Origin: Candidatus Aquidulcis sp.
Lineage (GTDB): Bacteria; Chloroflexota; Anaerolineae; Anaerolineales; UBA4823
Direction: 5' to 3'
Assembly: GCA_020723385.1 (NCBI GenBank)
Contig: DYIZ01000006.1
Coordinates: forward strand, 1 to 64,000
Length of the DNA: 64,000 nt
Part shown: positions 7,863 to 40,974 of the stretch, piece by piece
Layout: each line of letters begins with the position of its first letter
Position numbering within the stretch: the first letter of the stretch is position 1
Position numbers and translations under genes: made by a program
The notes under the pieces: model-generated
Told to the model about the DNA's origin: nothing
The model's database searches: none
The model's input: the letters and a program-made list of their open reading frames with translations, nothing else

Positions 7863-7890
7863 TTGACAAATCCACAACTTTGTCTATAAT
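7863..7890 (+). promoter_or_regulatory. Consensus housekeeping promoter of the cysteine operon
   Basis: TTGACA (7863-7868) and TATAAT (7885-7890), separated by 16 bases: perfect -35 and -10 hexamers. Predicted start of transcription near 7897, leaving a leader of about 280 bases before cysM. Confidence 0.85.
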
Positions 7891-7914
7891 TACTACTAAA
7901 TTTGTCATAATAAT

Positions 7915-8097
7915 TCACTCACTGATGGAGCTTTGGCTAATGTTTACCTGCATGTGTCTGAGGCGGGGAGCGCAACCACCCGTCTCGTCAAGATAACTCT
8001 CCGGTACGCCGGACGGTCAACAGACTGACGATAAGGGTGGCCGCGACCCCGCTAAACAGAATGTTCGTTTAGCGAGCGCACTGACGCCGCCCTTTTT
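7915..8097 (+). ncRNA. Unassigned structured leader RNA (candidate riboswitch)
   Basis: The transcribed leader folds into several well-supported stems: an 8-bp stem 7960-7967/7979-7986; a 5-bp stem with a stable TACG tetraloop at 8000-8013; a possible closing helix GTCTG 7956-7960 with CAGAC 8021-8025; an 8-bp stem 8050-8057/8067-8074; and GGGTGG (8035-8040) with CCGCCC (8087-8092) followed at once by TTTTT, like a terminator. ACTGACG occurs twice (8024 and 8080 region). I could not match it to the SAM, TPP, cobalamin, c-di-GMP, c-di-AMP, glycine, lysine, Moco or T-box consensus. Its place before a sulfur-assimilation operon suggests control by a sulfur metabolite, which is inference. Confidence 0.5.
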
Positions 8098-8180
8098 GTT
8101 TACCTGTTGGCCGTTTTGGTTCAGGGAACAGCAGATCGGAAATGCAATATAACGGCTGCCGTTTCCCCGGAGAAAGCCTG

Positions 8181-9182
8181 ATGATTTCGACAACTACACA
8201 AACAATTTTGACCCAGCCGGCTGAGATCCGTTTTCGGATCGCCAATCTCCCGGTGAAGCCGTATCCCTATCAACCCACGCCGCTCGAAGCCGCGGTGGGT
8301 AACACCCCGCTCCTGCCGCTGACCCGCATCGGAGCCGGGTTGAAGCCCTCGGTGCAGGTCTTTGCCAAAGCCGAATGGTTCAACCCTGGAGGCTCGATCA
8401 AAGACCGCCCGGCGCTCAACATCCTGCGCACCGCCCTGGCCGATGGGTCGCTGACCCCCGGCAAGCGCCTGCTCGACTCGACCTCCGGCAATATGGGCAT
8501 CGCCTACGCCACCTTCGGCAACGTGCTGGGGGTGCCGGTGACGCTGGCCGTGCCTTCCAACGCCAGCCCGGAGCGCCTTGCCATTCTCGAAGCCCTCGGC
8601 GCAGAGATCATCCTGACCGACCCGCTGGAAGGCTCCGATGGGGCTATCCGCAAAGCCCGCCAGCTCGCCGCTGAATTTCCCGAACGATTTTTCTACGCCA
8701 ATCAGTACGATAACCCCGCTAACTGGCAGGCGCATTACTTCACTACCGGTCCCGAGATCGTCCAGCAAACCGATTGCGGCGTGACGCATTTCGTCGCCGG
8801 GCTGGGCACATCGGGTACCCTCACTGGCGTGGCGCGCTACTTCCGCACCTATAATCCCGCAATCCAGATCATCGCTGTACAGCCCGACACAGCTTTCCAC
8901 GGGCTGGAAGGGCTGAAGCACATCGCATCGGCGATCAAGCCGGGCATCTACGATCCCAGCCTGCCCGACCGCACGTTGGAAGTGGAAACCGAGGCCGCAC
9001 ATGAGATGATGCGGCGGCTGGCGCGTGAGGAGGGCTATTTCGTGGGCATCTCCTCGGGCGCGTCGGCCTGGGCGGCCATGCAGGTTGCCTCGGAGTTGGA
9101 CGAAGGCGTGGTGGTGACGGTCTTCCCGGATGCCGGGTACAAATACCTGAGCGATAAAGCGCTCTGGGAATCAGGCCGATGA
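8181..9182 (+). CDS. cysM: CysM-type cysteine synthase (OPS sulfhydrylase-like)
   Basis: 333 residues from the ATG at 8181, chosen over 8142 because GGAG lies eight bases upstream. PLP-dependent beta-replacement enzyme: the lysine is K74 in GGSIKDRPA, the substrate loop is STSGNMG, and the phosphate loop is GLGTSGTLTG. The segment YANQYDNPANW and the C-terminal PDAGYKYLS resemble mycobacterial CysM, which joins O-phosphoserine to sulfur held as a thiocarboxylate on CysO. The next genes encode a JAMM peptidase, a CysO-like carrier and MoeZ, which makes this route much likelier than free-sulfide O-acetylserine sulfhydrylation. First gene of the operon behind the structured leader. Confidence 0.9.
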   Translation: MISTTTQTILTQPAEIRFRIANLPVKPYPYQPTPLEAAVGNTPLLPLTRIGAGLKPSVQVFAKAEWFNPGGSIKDRPALNILRTALADGSLTPGKRLLDSTSGNMGIAYATFGNVLGVPVTLAVPSNASPERLAILEALGAEIILTDPLEGSDGAIRKARQLAAEFPERFFYANQYDNPANWQAHYFTTGPEIVQQTDCGVTHFVAGLGTSGTLTGVARYFRTYNPAIQIIAVQPDTAFHGLEGLKHIASAIKPGIYDPSLPDRTLEVETEAAHEMMRRLAREEGYFVGISSGASAWAAMQVASELDEGVVVTVFPDAGYKYLSDKALWESGR

Positions 9183-9226
9183 CGGTAGACCGTTGGCCGT
9201 CATCCGTCCACGGTCTACGGTCAGGA
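9179..9226. repeat. Family E hairpin between cysM and JAMM gene
   Basis: GACGGTAGACCGT is followed by an inverted copy, ACGGTCTACGGTC, with one mismatch, starting at the cysM stop codon. The same ACGGTC/GACCGT units recur at 44953-45040 and 59035-59125. Confidence 0.75.
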
Positions 9227-9233
9227 TTTTATT

Positions 9234-9668
9234 ATGACTCTCGAAATTGATGATCAAACCTTGAAAGCGATCCACGCTCACGGCGAGGAGGCCTACCCCG
9301 AGGAGGGAGCTGGTTTCCTGCTGGGAAAAAGTGATCCTGGCCGCAGGCGGGTGGTATCCATCCTTGGATTGACCAACGCCCGTGAAGATGCCGCCCGGCA
9401 CAACCGCTACCTGCTCACCGCCGCCGATTACCTGAAAGGCGAACTGGAAGCCGATCGCCAGGGGCTGGAACTGCTCGGGATTTTCCACTCCCACCCGGAC
9501 CACCCCAACCGACCCTCCGAGTTCGACCGGGAATGGGCTATGCCCTGGTTCTCGTACATCATCACCAGCGTTCACCACGGTCAGGCTGTCGAATCCCTTT
9601 CATGGCGGCTTTCCGATGATCGCGCGGCATTTGTCGAAGAAATAATTCAAGTTATCAGTCATCAGTAA
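9234..9668 (+). CDS. mec: JAMM/MPN+ metallopeptidase, Mec-like
   Basis: 144 residues. The JAMM zinc motif is complete: His85-Ser-His87, Ser95 and Asp98 (HSHPDH...PSEFD), with a glutamate in the N-terminal EEGAGFLLG strand as the general base. In the mycobacterial system Mec hydrolyses the CysO-cysteine adduct to free cysteine; related JAMM enzymes (QbsD, HcyD) trim residues after the C-terminal Gly-Gly of sulfur carriers. Both jobs fit here because the carrier ends GGCDA. It lies 51 bases after cysM, separated by a repeat hairpin. Little Shine-Dalgarno sequence is seen before the ATG. Confidence 0.88.
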   Translation: MTLEIDDQTLKAIHAHGEEAYPEEGAGFLLGKSDPGRRRVVSILGLTNAREDAARHNRYLLTAADYLKGELEADRQGLELLGIFHSHPDHPNRPSEFDREWAMPWFSYIITSVHHGQAVESLSWRLSDDRAAFVEEIIQVISHQ

Positions 9669-9747
9669 TCAGTGAACAGTGAACAGTAACCAATGTGCTA
9701 GTCACTGATAACTGATAACTGATAACTGATCACTGATCACTGATGAT
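9648..9747. repeat. Family B tandem-inverted repeat
   Basis: Seven-to-ten-base units reading CAGTGAACAGTAATCAGT are followed by the inverse, ACTGATAACTGATCACTGAT, able to form a long imperfect hairpin. The first units encode the last residues of the JAMM protein (VISHQ) and its stop codon. Confidence 0.75.
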
Positions 9748-9770
9748 TGGCAAAACCATAGGAGTAAAAA

Positions 9771-10061
9771 ATGTCCCTCTACTACGTCAAACACGAGCAC
9801 AGCGCTGAGACCTGCCCGGCCAAAGACCCGCAGATGGGCGCGATGCTGCTCACCCATATCAGCCCAATGAACGCCCGCAAGTTCGGCGTCAATATCCACG
9901 GCGATGCCGTCCTCGACGGAAAGCACACGTTTGTGCTCATCGTGGACTCCGACAACCCGGCCAATATCGAGAACTTCATGCAGCCGTTCAAAATGGCCGG
10001 CTCGGTCGAGATCATCCCCGCTTCGACCTGCGAGACGGTCGTCGAGCGCTCCGGGTGCTAA
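9771..10061 (+). CDS. 96-residue conserved-looking unknown in cysteine operon
   Basis: A strong ribosome site (AGGAG, 9759 region) precedes the ATG. The protein is soluble, alpha/beta, with no signal or membrane segment. It resembles small dimeric alpha/beta-barrel proteins of the DUF3303 type at its C-terminal half (a phenylalanine-rich helix followed by VEIIPAST), but this is a weak resemblance. Two cysteine-bearing segments (TCPAKDP and the C-terminal TCETVVERSGC) are notable in a sulfur operon. It sits between the JAMM peptidase and the sulfur carrier genes, so a role in sulfur delivery or carrier handling is possible but unproven. Confidence 0.8.
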   Translation: MSLYYVKHEHSAETCPAKDPQMGAMLLTHISPMNARKFGVNIHGDAVLDGKHTFVLIVDSDNPANIENFMQPFKMAGSVEIIPASTCETVVERSGC

Positions 10062-10063
10062 TT

Positions 10064-10142
10064 CGGTTGCAGGTTGAAAGTTGGCAGGTTGAAGGTTAGA
10101 ATATCCATCGGTCAATCTTCAACCTGCGACTTGCAACCTTCG
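10064..10142. repeat. Family D hairpin (AGGTTGAAAGTT units)
   Basis: GGTTGCAGGTTGAAAGTT-type units are followed after about 15 bases by their inverse (TTCAACCTGCGACTTGCAACC), giving an imperfect hairpin of more than 20 bp between the unknown gene and cysO. The same units recur in frame inside the heparinase-like gene at 60.8-62.9 kb. Confidence 0.75.
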
Positions 10143-10167
10143 CCATTATCCTTTGAAAGAATAGAAC

Positions 10168-10449
10168 ATGCCCGCACTCAAAATTCCCACTCCCCTCCGT
10201 ACTTATACCAACGGCCTGGCCGAAGTACTCGTACAGGGCGTCACAGTCGGCGATGCAATGCAGAGTCTGGTTGCCCAATTCCCCACAATGCGCCAATACT
10301 TGTATAATGGCGAAGGCCAGCTCCGCCCGTTTGTCAACCTGTTCGTCGGCGAGAACAACATCAAAGATTTGCAAGGACTTGAAACGCCGTTGAGCGATGG
10401 CGACAAGCTGTTGTTGATACCCAGCATTGCTGGAGGTTGTGATGCGTGA
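10168..10449 (+). CDS. cysO: CysO/ThiS/MoaD-like sulfur carrier, GGCDA tail
   Basis: 93 residues with a beta-grasp ubiquitin-like fold. It aligns by eye with mycobacterial CysO along its length (PTPLRTYTNG, FVNLFVGENN, LSDGDKLLLIPSIAGG). The Gly-Gly that must be adenylated and thiocarboxylated is at 89-90 but is followed by Cys91-Asp92-Ala93. The encoded protein is therefore a pro-carrier that should be trimmed before MoeZ can activate it; the adjacent JAMM peptidase is the obvious candidate. The product delivers sulfur to CysM. Confidence 0.88.
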   Translation: MPALKIPTPLRTYTNGLAEVLVQGVTVGDAMQSLVAQFPTMRQYLYNGEGQLRPFVNLFVGENNIKDLQGLETPLSDGDKLLLIPSIAGGCDA

Positions 10450-10552
10450 AACGTAAAGCGTCAAAGTAAAACGTAATCCGTAATCCGTAAAGAACACCTT
10501 ACGTGTTTACGTTTTACGTGTTTACGTGTTTCCGTTCCACGTTTTGCGATTT
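10450..10552. repeat. Family A hairpin (ACGTAAA/TTTACGT units)
   Basis: Units such as GTAAAACGTAATCCGTAA are followed by ACGTGTTTACGTTTTACG, pairing into an A+T-rich hairpin between cysO and moeZ. Other copies are at 12742-12811 and 48759-48828, with a similar central sequence (AAGAACACC, AAGGTGCTC, AAAGCGCC). Confidence 0.75.
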
Positions 10553-10568
10553 TGCACACGAGAAAATC

Positions 10569-11723
10569 ATGTTCCCCACTCTCTCACACGAAGAAATATT
10601 GCGTTACTCGCGCCATTTACTGATCCCCGAAGTCGGGCTGGAGGGGCAGCGCAAGCTGAAGGCCGCCTCCGTGCTGGTCATCGGCACCGGGGGGCTGGGA
10701 TCGCCCCTCTTGCTTTACCTCGCCGCCGCCGGCGTCGGCCACATCGGGGTGGTGGACTTCGATGTGGTGGATTACTCCAACCTTCAGCGGCAGATCATCC
10801 ACGGCACATCGGGGGTGAATACGCTCAAGGTCGAATCCGCCCGCCAGCGGATGCTCGATCTCAACCCCGACATCCAGGTGGATAGCTACAACGAGCCGTT
10901 CACCTCTGCCAACGCCATGCGTATAGCTGAAGGCTATGACATCATCGTGGACGGCACCGACAACTTCCCCACCCGCTACCTGTCGAATGACCTGGCTGTG
11001 CTCACCGGAAAACCCAACGTCTACGGCTCTATCTTCCGTTTCGAGGGGCAGGCCAGCGTATTCGACGCCACACGCGGCCCGTGCTATCGCTGCTTATTCC
11101 CCGAACCGCCGCCGCCCGGGCTGGTGCCATCCTGCGCCGAAGGCGGCGTGTTCGGCGTGCTGCCGGGCGTCATCGGCGCCATCCAGGCCACCGAAACGCT
11201 CAAGCTCATCCTCGGCGTCGGCGAGCCGCTCATCGGGCGGTTGATGCTGTACAACGCCCTCGACATGACTTTCGAGTATGTCAAGCTGAAGAAAAACCCG
11301 CACTGCAAAGTGTGCGGGCCGACCCCGGAGATCACCGGGCTGATTGATTACTTCGAGTTCTGCGGCGTCCCCGGATTCGACCACGATGAAGGGTCTGCCG
11401 GAGCCGGATGGGACATCTCCGCCCCCGAGCTGGCTGCCCGCCTGGGGAGCGGCATCCCCATCCGGCTGGTGGACGTACGCGAACCCCATGAGCTGGAGAT
11501 TTCCCGCATCGAAGGGGCAGAGTTGTTCCCCCTGGGGCAGTTGGCGTCGCGCCTGTCGGAGCTGGACAGCGCCCAGGAGATGGTCGTCTTTTGTAAAGCC
11601 GGCTCGCGCTCGGCGCGTGCCCTGGAGCTGCTGGTCAGCGCCGGTTTCCGCAAGGTAAAGAACTTGCGCGGCGGCATCAATTCCTGGGCGCGGGAGGTGG
11701 ACCCGAAACTGCCGGTGTATTGA
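10569..11723 (+). CDS. moeZ: MoeZ: adenylyltransferase-sulfurtransferase fusion
   Basis: 384 residues from the ATG at 10569. A frame-open stretch upstream (from 10503) is repeat family A and does not look like protein. An N-terminal ThiF/MoeB domain with the nucleotide loop GTGGLGSP and the substrate-grip segment GTDNFPTRYL adenylates the carrier's C-terminal glycine. A zinc-type pair CKVCG follows the CYRCLF segment, and a rhodanese domain (about 280-384) carries the active cysteine in FCKAGSRS near residue 341, which transfers sulfur to make the thiocarboxylate. Colinear with mycobacterial MoeZ. It could also serve MoaD-type carriers such as that at 36.7 kb. Confidence 0.92.
   Translation: MFPTLSHEEILRYSRHLLIPEVGLEGQRKLKAASVLVIGTGGLGSPLLLYLAAAGVGHIGVVDFDVVDYSNLQRQIIHGTSGVNTLKVESARQRMLDLNPDIQVDSYNEPFTSANAMRIAEGYDIIVDGTDNFPTRYLSNDLAVLTGKPNVYGSIFRFEGQASVFDATRGPCYRCLFPEPPPPGLVPSCAEGGVFGVLPGVIGAIQATETLKLILGVGEPLIGRLMLYNALDMTFEYVKLKKNPHCKVCGPTPEITGLIDYFEFCGVPGFDHDEGSAGAGWDISAPELAARLGSGIPIRLVDVREPHELEISRIEGAELFPLGQLASRLSELDSAQEMVVFCKAGSRSARALELLVSAGFRKVKNLRGGINSWAREVDPKLPVY

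Positions 11724-40799: not shown

Positions 40800-40974
<175 letters not shown>

Follow-up and report, generated by a model that had tools for sequence, protein, structure and literature searches.

A structured leader upstream of a cysteine operon

The window, by which we mean the whole 64,000-nt stretch of Candidatus Aquidulcis sp. DNA analyzed here, contains a thiocarboxylate-type cysteine operon preceded by a long leader (7863-8180). The coordinates of all features are collected in Table 1. The first gene of the operon encodes a cysM-like cysteine synthase, for which the ATG at 8181 (with a GGAG at 8169-8172) was preferred to position 8142, where the mechanically called ORF begins. Judging from gene order and spacing, the genes from 8181 to 11723 are probably co-transcribed. 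The DUF3303 protein is encoded between the JAB and the ThiS-like genes, and the intergenic sequence that separates it from the JAB gene (9669-9760) is repetitive and GATAACTGATCACTGAT-like.

The initial annotation of this region had described a perfect promoter, several strong helices and a terminator-like GGGTGG/CCGCCC stem with TTTTT 84 bases before cysM. All three are present: the promoter matches the consensus throughout, the segment 7897-8185 folds at -109 kcal/mol (z -4.6 relative to shuffles), and the stem with its U-tract (8093-8097) lies 84 nt upstream of the ATG at 8181. Its further statement that about 280 bases are untranslated was wrong, as a short ORF with its own Shine-Dalgarno sequence lies among them; it also overlooked a larger arm pair enclosing the terminator stem, a second U-tract, and an antiterminator that competes with the terminator.

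The leader had no match in Rfam at the gathering score, and allowing E-values up to 10 yielded only two hits at chance level, in agreement with the earlier remark that it fits no familiar riboswitch consensus. The only Rfam match in the window was a SAM riboswitch (RF00162) at 40800-40974 on the minus strand, with 83.9 bits.

Table 1. Positions of the leader elements and operon genes in the window, and of tandem leader copies in other genomes.
Feature	Position	Strand	Details
Sigma-70 type promoter, TTGACA-16-TATAAT	7863-7890	+	12/12 consensus match, 16-nt spacer
Putative Shine-Dalgarno GGAG of leader ORF	7927-7930	+	From sequence; 9 nt 5' of ATG 7940
Leader peptide ORF, MFTCMCLRRGAQPPVSSR	7940-7996	+	Stop 7994-7996
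Regulatory codons TGC-ATG-TGT (Cys-x-Cys)	7949-7957	+	Cys codons 7949-7951, 7955-7957
5' hairpin (1:2), GAGGCGGG : CCCGTCTC	7960-7967 : 7979-7986	+	95.9% of cells paired in alignment A1
Predicted antiterminator	7962-8053	+	-47.6 kcal/mol, z -5.5; compensatory changes
Antiterminator clamp GGCGGGG : CCCCGCT	7962-7968 : 8047-8053	+	
Antiterminator GCG : CGC	7970-7972 : 8042-8044	+	
Antiterminator CCACCC : GGGTGG	7976-7981 : 8035-8040	+	
Antiterminator TCGTCA : TGACGA	7985-7990 : 8026-8031	+	
Predicted terminator, two nested arm pairs, two U-tracts	8011-8117	+	8007-8118: -53.4 kcal/mol, z -7.2
Terminator outer arms ACGGTCAACAGAC / GTTTACCTGTTGGCCGT	8013-8025 / 8098-8114	+	
Terminator inner arms AAGGGTGGC / GCCGCCCTT	8033-8041 / 8086-8094	+	
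Terminator U-tracts	8093-8097 and 8114-8117	+	
cysM-like cysteine synthase, first operon gene	8181-9182	+	TIGR01138 cysM, E 4e-104, under the model's cut-off; PF00291
JAB (Mec-like)	9234-9668	+	
DUF3303	9771-10061	+	
ThiS/MoaD-like CysO	10168-10449	+	
ThiF-rhodanese (MoeZ-like)	10503-11723	+	
Tandem copies, L066	214-328 and 497-608		
Tandem copies, L086	4999-5111 and 5219-5329	-	
Tandem copies, G114:C103	29049-29157 and 29396-29508	-	

Distribution and downstream genes

Of 100 relatives examined by plain DNA search, not counting the window's own genome, 14 carried the leader. A covariance model built from 14 sequences (R1) detected it in 77 of 396 genomes sampled from the class and, in a search of the family, in 32 of 38 genomes. 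The leader stands before cysteine operons across Anaerolineae. When a further model (R2) was run on 400 genomes across the phylum, matches fell in the window's own class, with a single weak exception from another class (G789, E 2e-4). We also scanned named genomes with a sequence pattern, for which about 7 chance matches are expected from its information content. Among the 80 loci listed, 75 were confirmed by strong R2 scores, and almost all of these are in Anaerolineales, Anaerolineaceae, Ardenticatenaceae, Brevefilum or unplaced Chloroflexi. On this distribution, the window itself would most likely be of Anaerolineae origin. A pattern match in Natronococcus was recovered weakly by R2 (22.8 bits); those in Methylobacter, Ferruginibacter (twice) and Brocadiaceae were not confirmed at E 0.01 and were discarded. 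A search for paralogous copies of the leader in the window's genome gave none that were convincing.

We assembled 129 model hits and removed three that we took to be false (L090, L134 and L144), which left 126 copies in 109 genomes. The first downstream ORFs were grouped by similarity and one representative per group was identified with Pfam. Nearly all are sulfur genes: most belong to the cysteine synthase family (92 of 126 copies), followed by rhodanese (9), sulfite/nitrite reductase (6), DUF4395 (5), the O-acetylhomoserine sulfhydrylase type (MetY; Cys/Met PLP family; 4), serine acetyltransferase (CysE; 4), a sulfur transporter (PF04143; 2), a thioredoxin-domain pair (2) and a ThiS-rhodanese-ThiF fusion (1). 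One copy precedes an MFS protein, and the leader match there is probably false. Its presence ahead of cysK, cysE, metY, rhodanese and sulfite reductase genes as well shows that the leader is not confined to the thiocarboxylate carrier pathway. The fusion protein, encoded behind the leader at L060 697-2319, joins ThiS, rhodanese and ThiF in 541 aa. In three genomes the leader occurs as tandem copies before sulfite/nitrite reductase genes, an arrangement that recalls tandem riboswitches.

A short ORF with two conserved cysteine codons

The 126 copies share a short reading frame with two cysteine codons. The frame of these codons is open from an ATG through the first Cys codon in 119 copies, whereas the two alternative frames are open in 4 and 18, and the seven non-ATG copies begin with TTG or GTG; nearly all matches of the plain DNA search carried the same small frame. 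In the window a further in-frame ATG lies upstream, at 7925, and most family members have a GGAG at the place equivalent to that in the window. In family members conservation also extends to the -10 region and the initial transcribed region. The leader is thus probably translated, at least by its anatomy of GGAG, ATG, two Cys codons and stop.

The conserved core of the peptide is its end, C-x-C-x-x-R-G-x-stop. Variation affects the position between the two cysteines, the next two residues and the entire N-terminus, N-termini being unrelated between copies and the start position varying. Part of the uniformity of the core is built in, because sequences of this kind went into the search model, but that does not apply to the open frame, to the start codons or to the variability of the N-termini. 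At the first Cys position 112 copies have TGC, 13 have TGT and one has TGG, so that TGC or TGT is found in 125 of 126; at the second, every one of the 126 has TGT. In the long ORFs of the window TGT is the less used Cys codon, with 37 occurrences versus 127 for the other (37/164). The stop codon lies 24 nt past the first Cys codon in 105 copies and 21 nt past it in 10. In the window copy a CAA (7973-7975) replaces the usual TAA or TAG, making the ORF seven codons longer, with its stop 21 nt later. The TGG copy (L135, G111:C35) is a variant leader, MHAWTCKRRGL followed by stop, in which Trp replaces the first Cys, and lies upstream of a MetY-type gene.

Predicted mutually exclusive antiterminator and terminator structures

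The predicted antiterminator pairs part of the ORF's own coding strand with a distal segment, region 3. Its family form is an almost invariant clamp, GCGGGG:CCCCGC, then GTARCCACC:GGTGGTTGC and then CGTCA:TGACG, around an inner loop that varies freely in length and sequence. The compensatory changes named in the initial annotation as a mark of support were indeed seen: among 100 aligned copies (alignment A2), two-sided changes affect 18 of the 21 pairs, and 87.7% of antiterminator cells are paired. The two-sided-change cells number 220, against 63.6 +/- 11 in shuffled alignments and at most 55 with slid partners; as this alignment was fitted to the model, it leans towards the model's structure. 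A MAFFT alignment of 14 sequences, which is not structure-fitted, gave the same trend on a smaller scale (10 two-sided cells versus 4.0 +/- 2.1 shuffled). Outside the codons, the conserved bases are those of paired strands, not of an aptamer-like unpaired core.

A terminator preceding a U-tract was resolved in 103 of the 126 copies, with a median of -53 kcal/mol compared with -37 when its 3' half is shuffled. The window terminator shares 21 nt with the antiterminator, and region 3 belongs to both structures over at least 5 nt in 93% of the 103 resolved copies (mean 17), the control with shuffled terminator 3' half giving a mean of 8 nt and at least 5 nt in 70%. Computationally, then, the two structures appear mutually exclusive, with the choice between them predicted to be set by the position of the ribosome. 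In the other 23 copies our filter resolved no terminator behind region 3, and some of these may act otherwise.

The 5' hairpin (1:2) is kept in the family and folds more stably than shuffled sequence (median MFE -15.6 versus -10.6). We looked for two-sided changes in it in alignment A1 and found none, and at equilibrium it is minor once region 3 exists. We therefore rejected it as the chief control element and regard it as no more than a candidate protector.

To assess the effect of a ribosome, 123 leaders were folded to the end of region 3 with the ribosome at four places. Its footprint was assumed to be 15 nt from the P-site codon. With the ribosome at the first or the second Cys codon, regions 2 and 3 paired in 98% of copies (mean 15.7 and 15.6 pairs, respectively); with the ribosome at the stop codon this fell to 54% (mean 5.9 pairs). 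The shuffled control still paired in 72%, because GC-rich segments pair easily. At the stage when the terminator has yet to be transcribed, the leader folds most stably as the antiterminator even in the absence of a ribosome. Keeping basal expression low when the ORF is not translated would therefore depend on the order of folding, with the 5' hairpin forming first.

A proposed ribosome-mediated attenuator sensing cysteine supply

We propose, with a probability of about 0.88, that the leader acts as a ribosome-mediated transcription attenuator, with charged tRNA-Cys as its gauge of cysteine supply. The computed evidence comprises the conserved frame, the Cys codons, the compensatory pairing, the competing structures sharing about 17 nt and the sulfur genes downstream; stalling, termination, read-through and the signal itself we infer from the model. 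A ribosome would load on the leader ORF while RNA polymerase transcribes the leader. With ample Cys-tRNA it would clear TGC-ATG-TGT, arrive at the stop codon and cover the clamp and region 2 (7963-7990), leaving region 3 (8026-8052) free to join the terminator, and transcription would end at the U-tracts. With scarce Cys-tRNA it would pause when one of the two Cys codons occupies the A site; region 2, then free, would pair with region 3 as antiterminator and allow read-through into cysM and the rest of the operon. Against this reading counts the presence of only two Cys codons and not a long run, as does the displaced stop codon of the window copy.

The clamp starts 14 nt past the first Cys codon, at the expected front edge of a ribosome that has stalled there, and no indel was seen between this codon and the clamp. 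The invariant spacing and the retention of R-G would be explained by the clamp beginning at this assumed ribosome edge. A more speculative idea, which we consider rather unlikely, is that the clamp is a ruler for ribosome position, the two cysteines giving two strengths of read-through and thus a graded rather than an on/off sensor. The clamp would then close fully only with the ribosome on the first Cys codon (leading edge at about p+13) and be covered with the ribosome on the second (p+19); graded sensing would be served by the clamp itself, by its constant 14-nt distance and by the unvarying TGT of the second Cys codon.

Several other readings were weighed. The structures could control translation of the first gene instead of transcription termination, as might be suggested by the copies lacking a resolved terminator and by mycobacterial Cys leaders, which have no terminators (PMC1262725). 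The window and most copies, however, have a strong stem with a U-tract, and the cysM ribosome binding site lies outside the stem, about 50 nt past the last U-tract, which makes this reading improbable. It is also possible to see an arrest peptide in the C-x-C...RG nascent chain, sensing cysteine, sulfide, redox state or a metal and not Cys-tRNA starvation: the C-x-C is all but invariant and the R-G nearly so, and other sensing leaders exist, reportedly including copper-related translational control. Yet the clamp helix GCGGGG:CCCCGC can explain R-G, variation is seen at the position separating the cysteines, at the next two and throughout the N-terminus, and the roughly 4-12 residues present at the stall are short for sensing in the tunnel; we regard an arrest peptide as very improbable.

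The initial annotation had suggested a new leader sensing cysteine, O-phosphoserine or a charged-carrier state. What stands of this is a conserved regulatory leader, its signal being most likely cysteine in the form of charged tRNA-Cys; an RNA that senses a metabolite or carrier state is not supported, the core being made of a Cys-codon frame, a clamp and a stop. A riboswitch for cysteine, O-phosphoserine, O-acetylserine or a related sulfur metabolite would agree with a strong conserved structure before sulfur genes that is absent from Rfam, but the conserved bases outside the codons are paired, the inner loop of the antiterminator is free to vary, and the open frame (119 of 126 copies) and fixed stop codon would be left unexplained, so that we hold it to be highly improbable. 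We find least probable of all that the leader is a T-box, with a TGC specifier and an AGGGTGG-like element for direct binding of uncharged tRNA-Cys. The T-box sequence is AGGGTGGNACCGCG, which AAGGGTGGCCGCGACC at 8033 resembles; a TGC is present, and T-boxes are common in the class (100 of 100 genomes, with seven matches in the window's genome). However, the RF00230 model that finds them across these genomes matches neither the leader nor its relatives, and with this positive control in the same class we rejected the T-box. The resemblance is partial and confined to the window and close relatives, with no AGGGTGGNACCGCG bearing a free TGGN; many homologues lack the TGG element (e.g. GACGGCAGGACGACCCCGC) and keep the reading frame and stop, and a T-box could do without a start codon, a frame and a stop. 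In this class, T-boxes would exist side by side with leader-peptide attenuation.

Comparison with known systems

The leader has the computed features of an amino acid leader attenuator: a Cys-codon ORF, a terminator, an exclusive antiterminator and sulfur genes downstream. It represents no new principle; the leader is real, well supported as a cysteine attenuator and widespread in its class. Our full-text literature searches, covering one full-text collection, turned up no account of Cys leaders in Chloroflexota, and a survey of Rfam regulons including Chloroflexi gives, in its excerpted text, T-boxes and the SAM riboswitch and no Cys leader (PMC3766115). As far as could be searched, it is an undescribed, class-wide element with its own architecture, Cys-codon attenuation itself being already known, and provides the first evidence that we found for a cysteine attenuator in Chloroflexota. 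One RNA element would define a sulfur-gene regulon over a whole class of mostly uncultured bacteria, flagging genes of cysteine and sulfur supply that include the poorly known DUF4395, the ThiS-rhodanese-ThiF fusion and the DUF3303 gene of the window operon. It also indicates that lineages rich in T-boxes still employ leader peptides for cysteine. The leader model is specific enough for an Rfam family.

With the T-box (RF00230), which is abundant in the same genomes, the leader would share the control of amino acid genes by antitermination; it differs in lacking a model match and, judged by its anatomy, in being translated. The classical trp, his and leu attenuators likewise have regulatory codons, alternative hairpins and a rho-independent terminator, but they respond to other amino acids and are unrelated in sequence, and their Rfam families (Trp, His and Leu leaders) do not match our leader, in which the clamp puts the coding strand of the ORF itself into the antiterminator.

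Cysteine leader peptides have been described before the cys operons of mycobacteria, where a conserved terminator hairpin is missing (PMC1262725), and of other actinobacteria (Canestrari et al. 2020, as cited in PMC13236596). The actinobacterial leaders share with ours a Cys-codon peptide before cys operons and cysteine-responsive attenuation, but they carry several Cys codons in a row close to the stop and lack a conserved terminator hairpin, whereas the window leader has both terminator and antiterminator. In Rhodobacterales, the uORFC-8-2 motif is a short uORF with conserved Cys codons before cysS, with a 3' U run that fits an intrinsic terminator and a presumed ribosome-mediated transcription attenuation sensing Cys-tRNA (PMC8632094). 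The Cys-codon uORF, the terminator-like 3' U run and the presumed Cys-tRNA attenuation are common to both. That motif, however, is found only before cysS in Rhodobacterales, with tandem Cys codons at about positions 14-15 and two prominent stems. The window leader falls outside its definition, with C-x-C at positions 4 and 6 of the peptide, before cysM and in Chloroflexota, and is further set apart by the clamp at the ribosome edge, the nested double terminator and a sulfur regulon of many genes.
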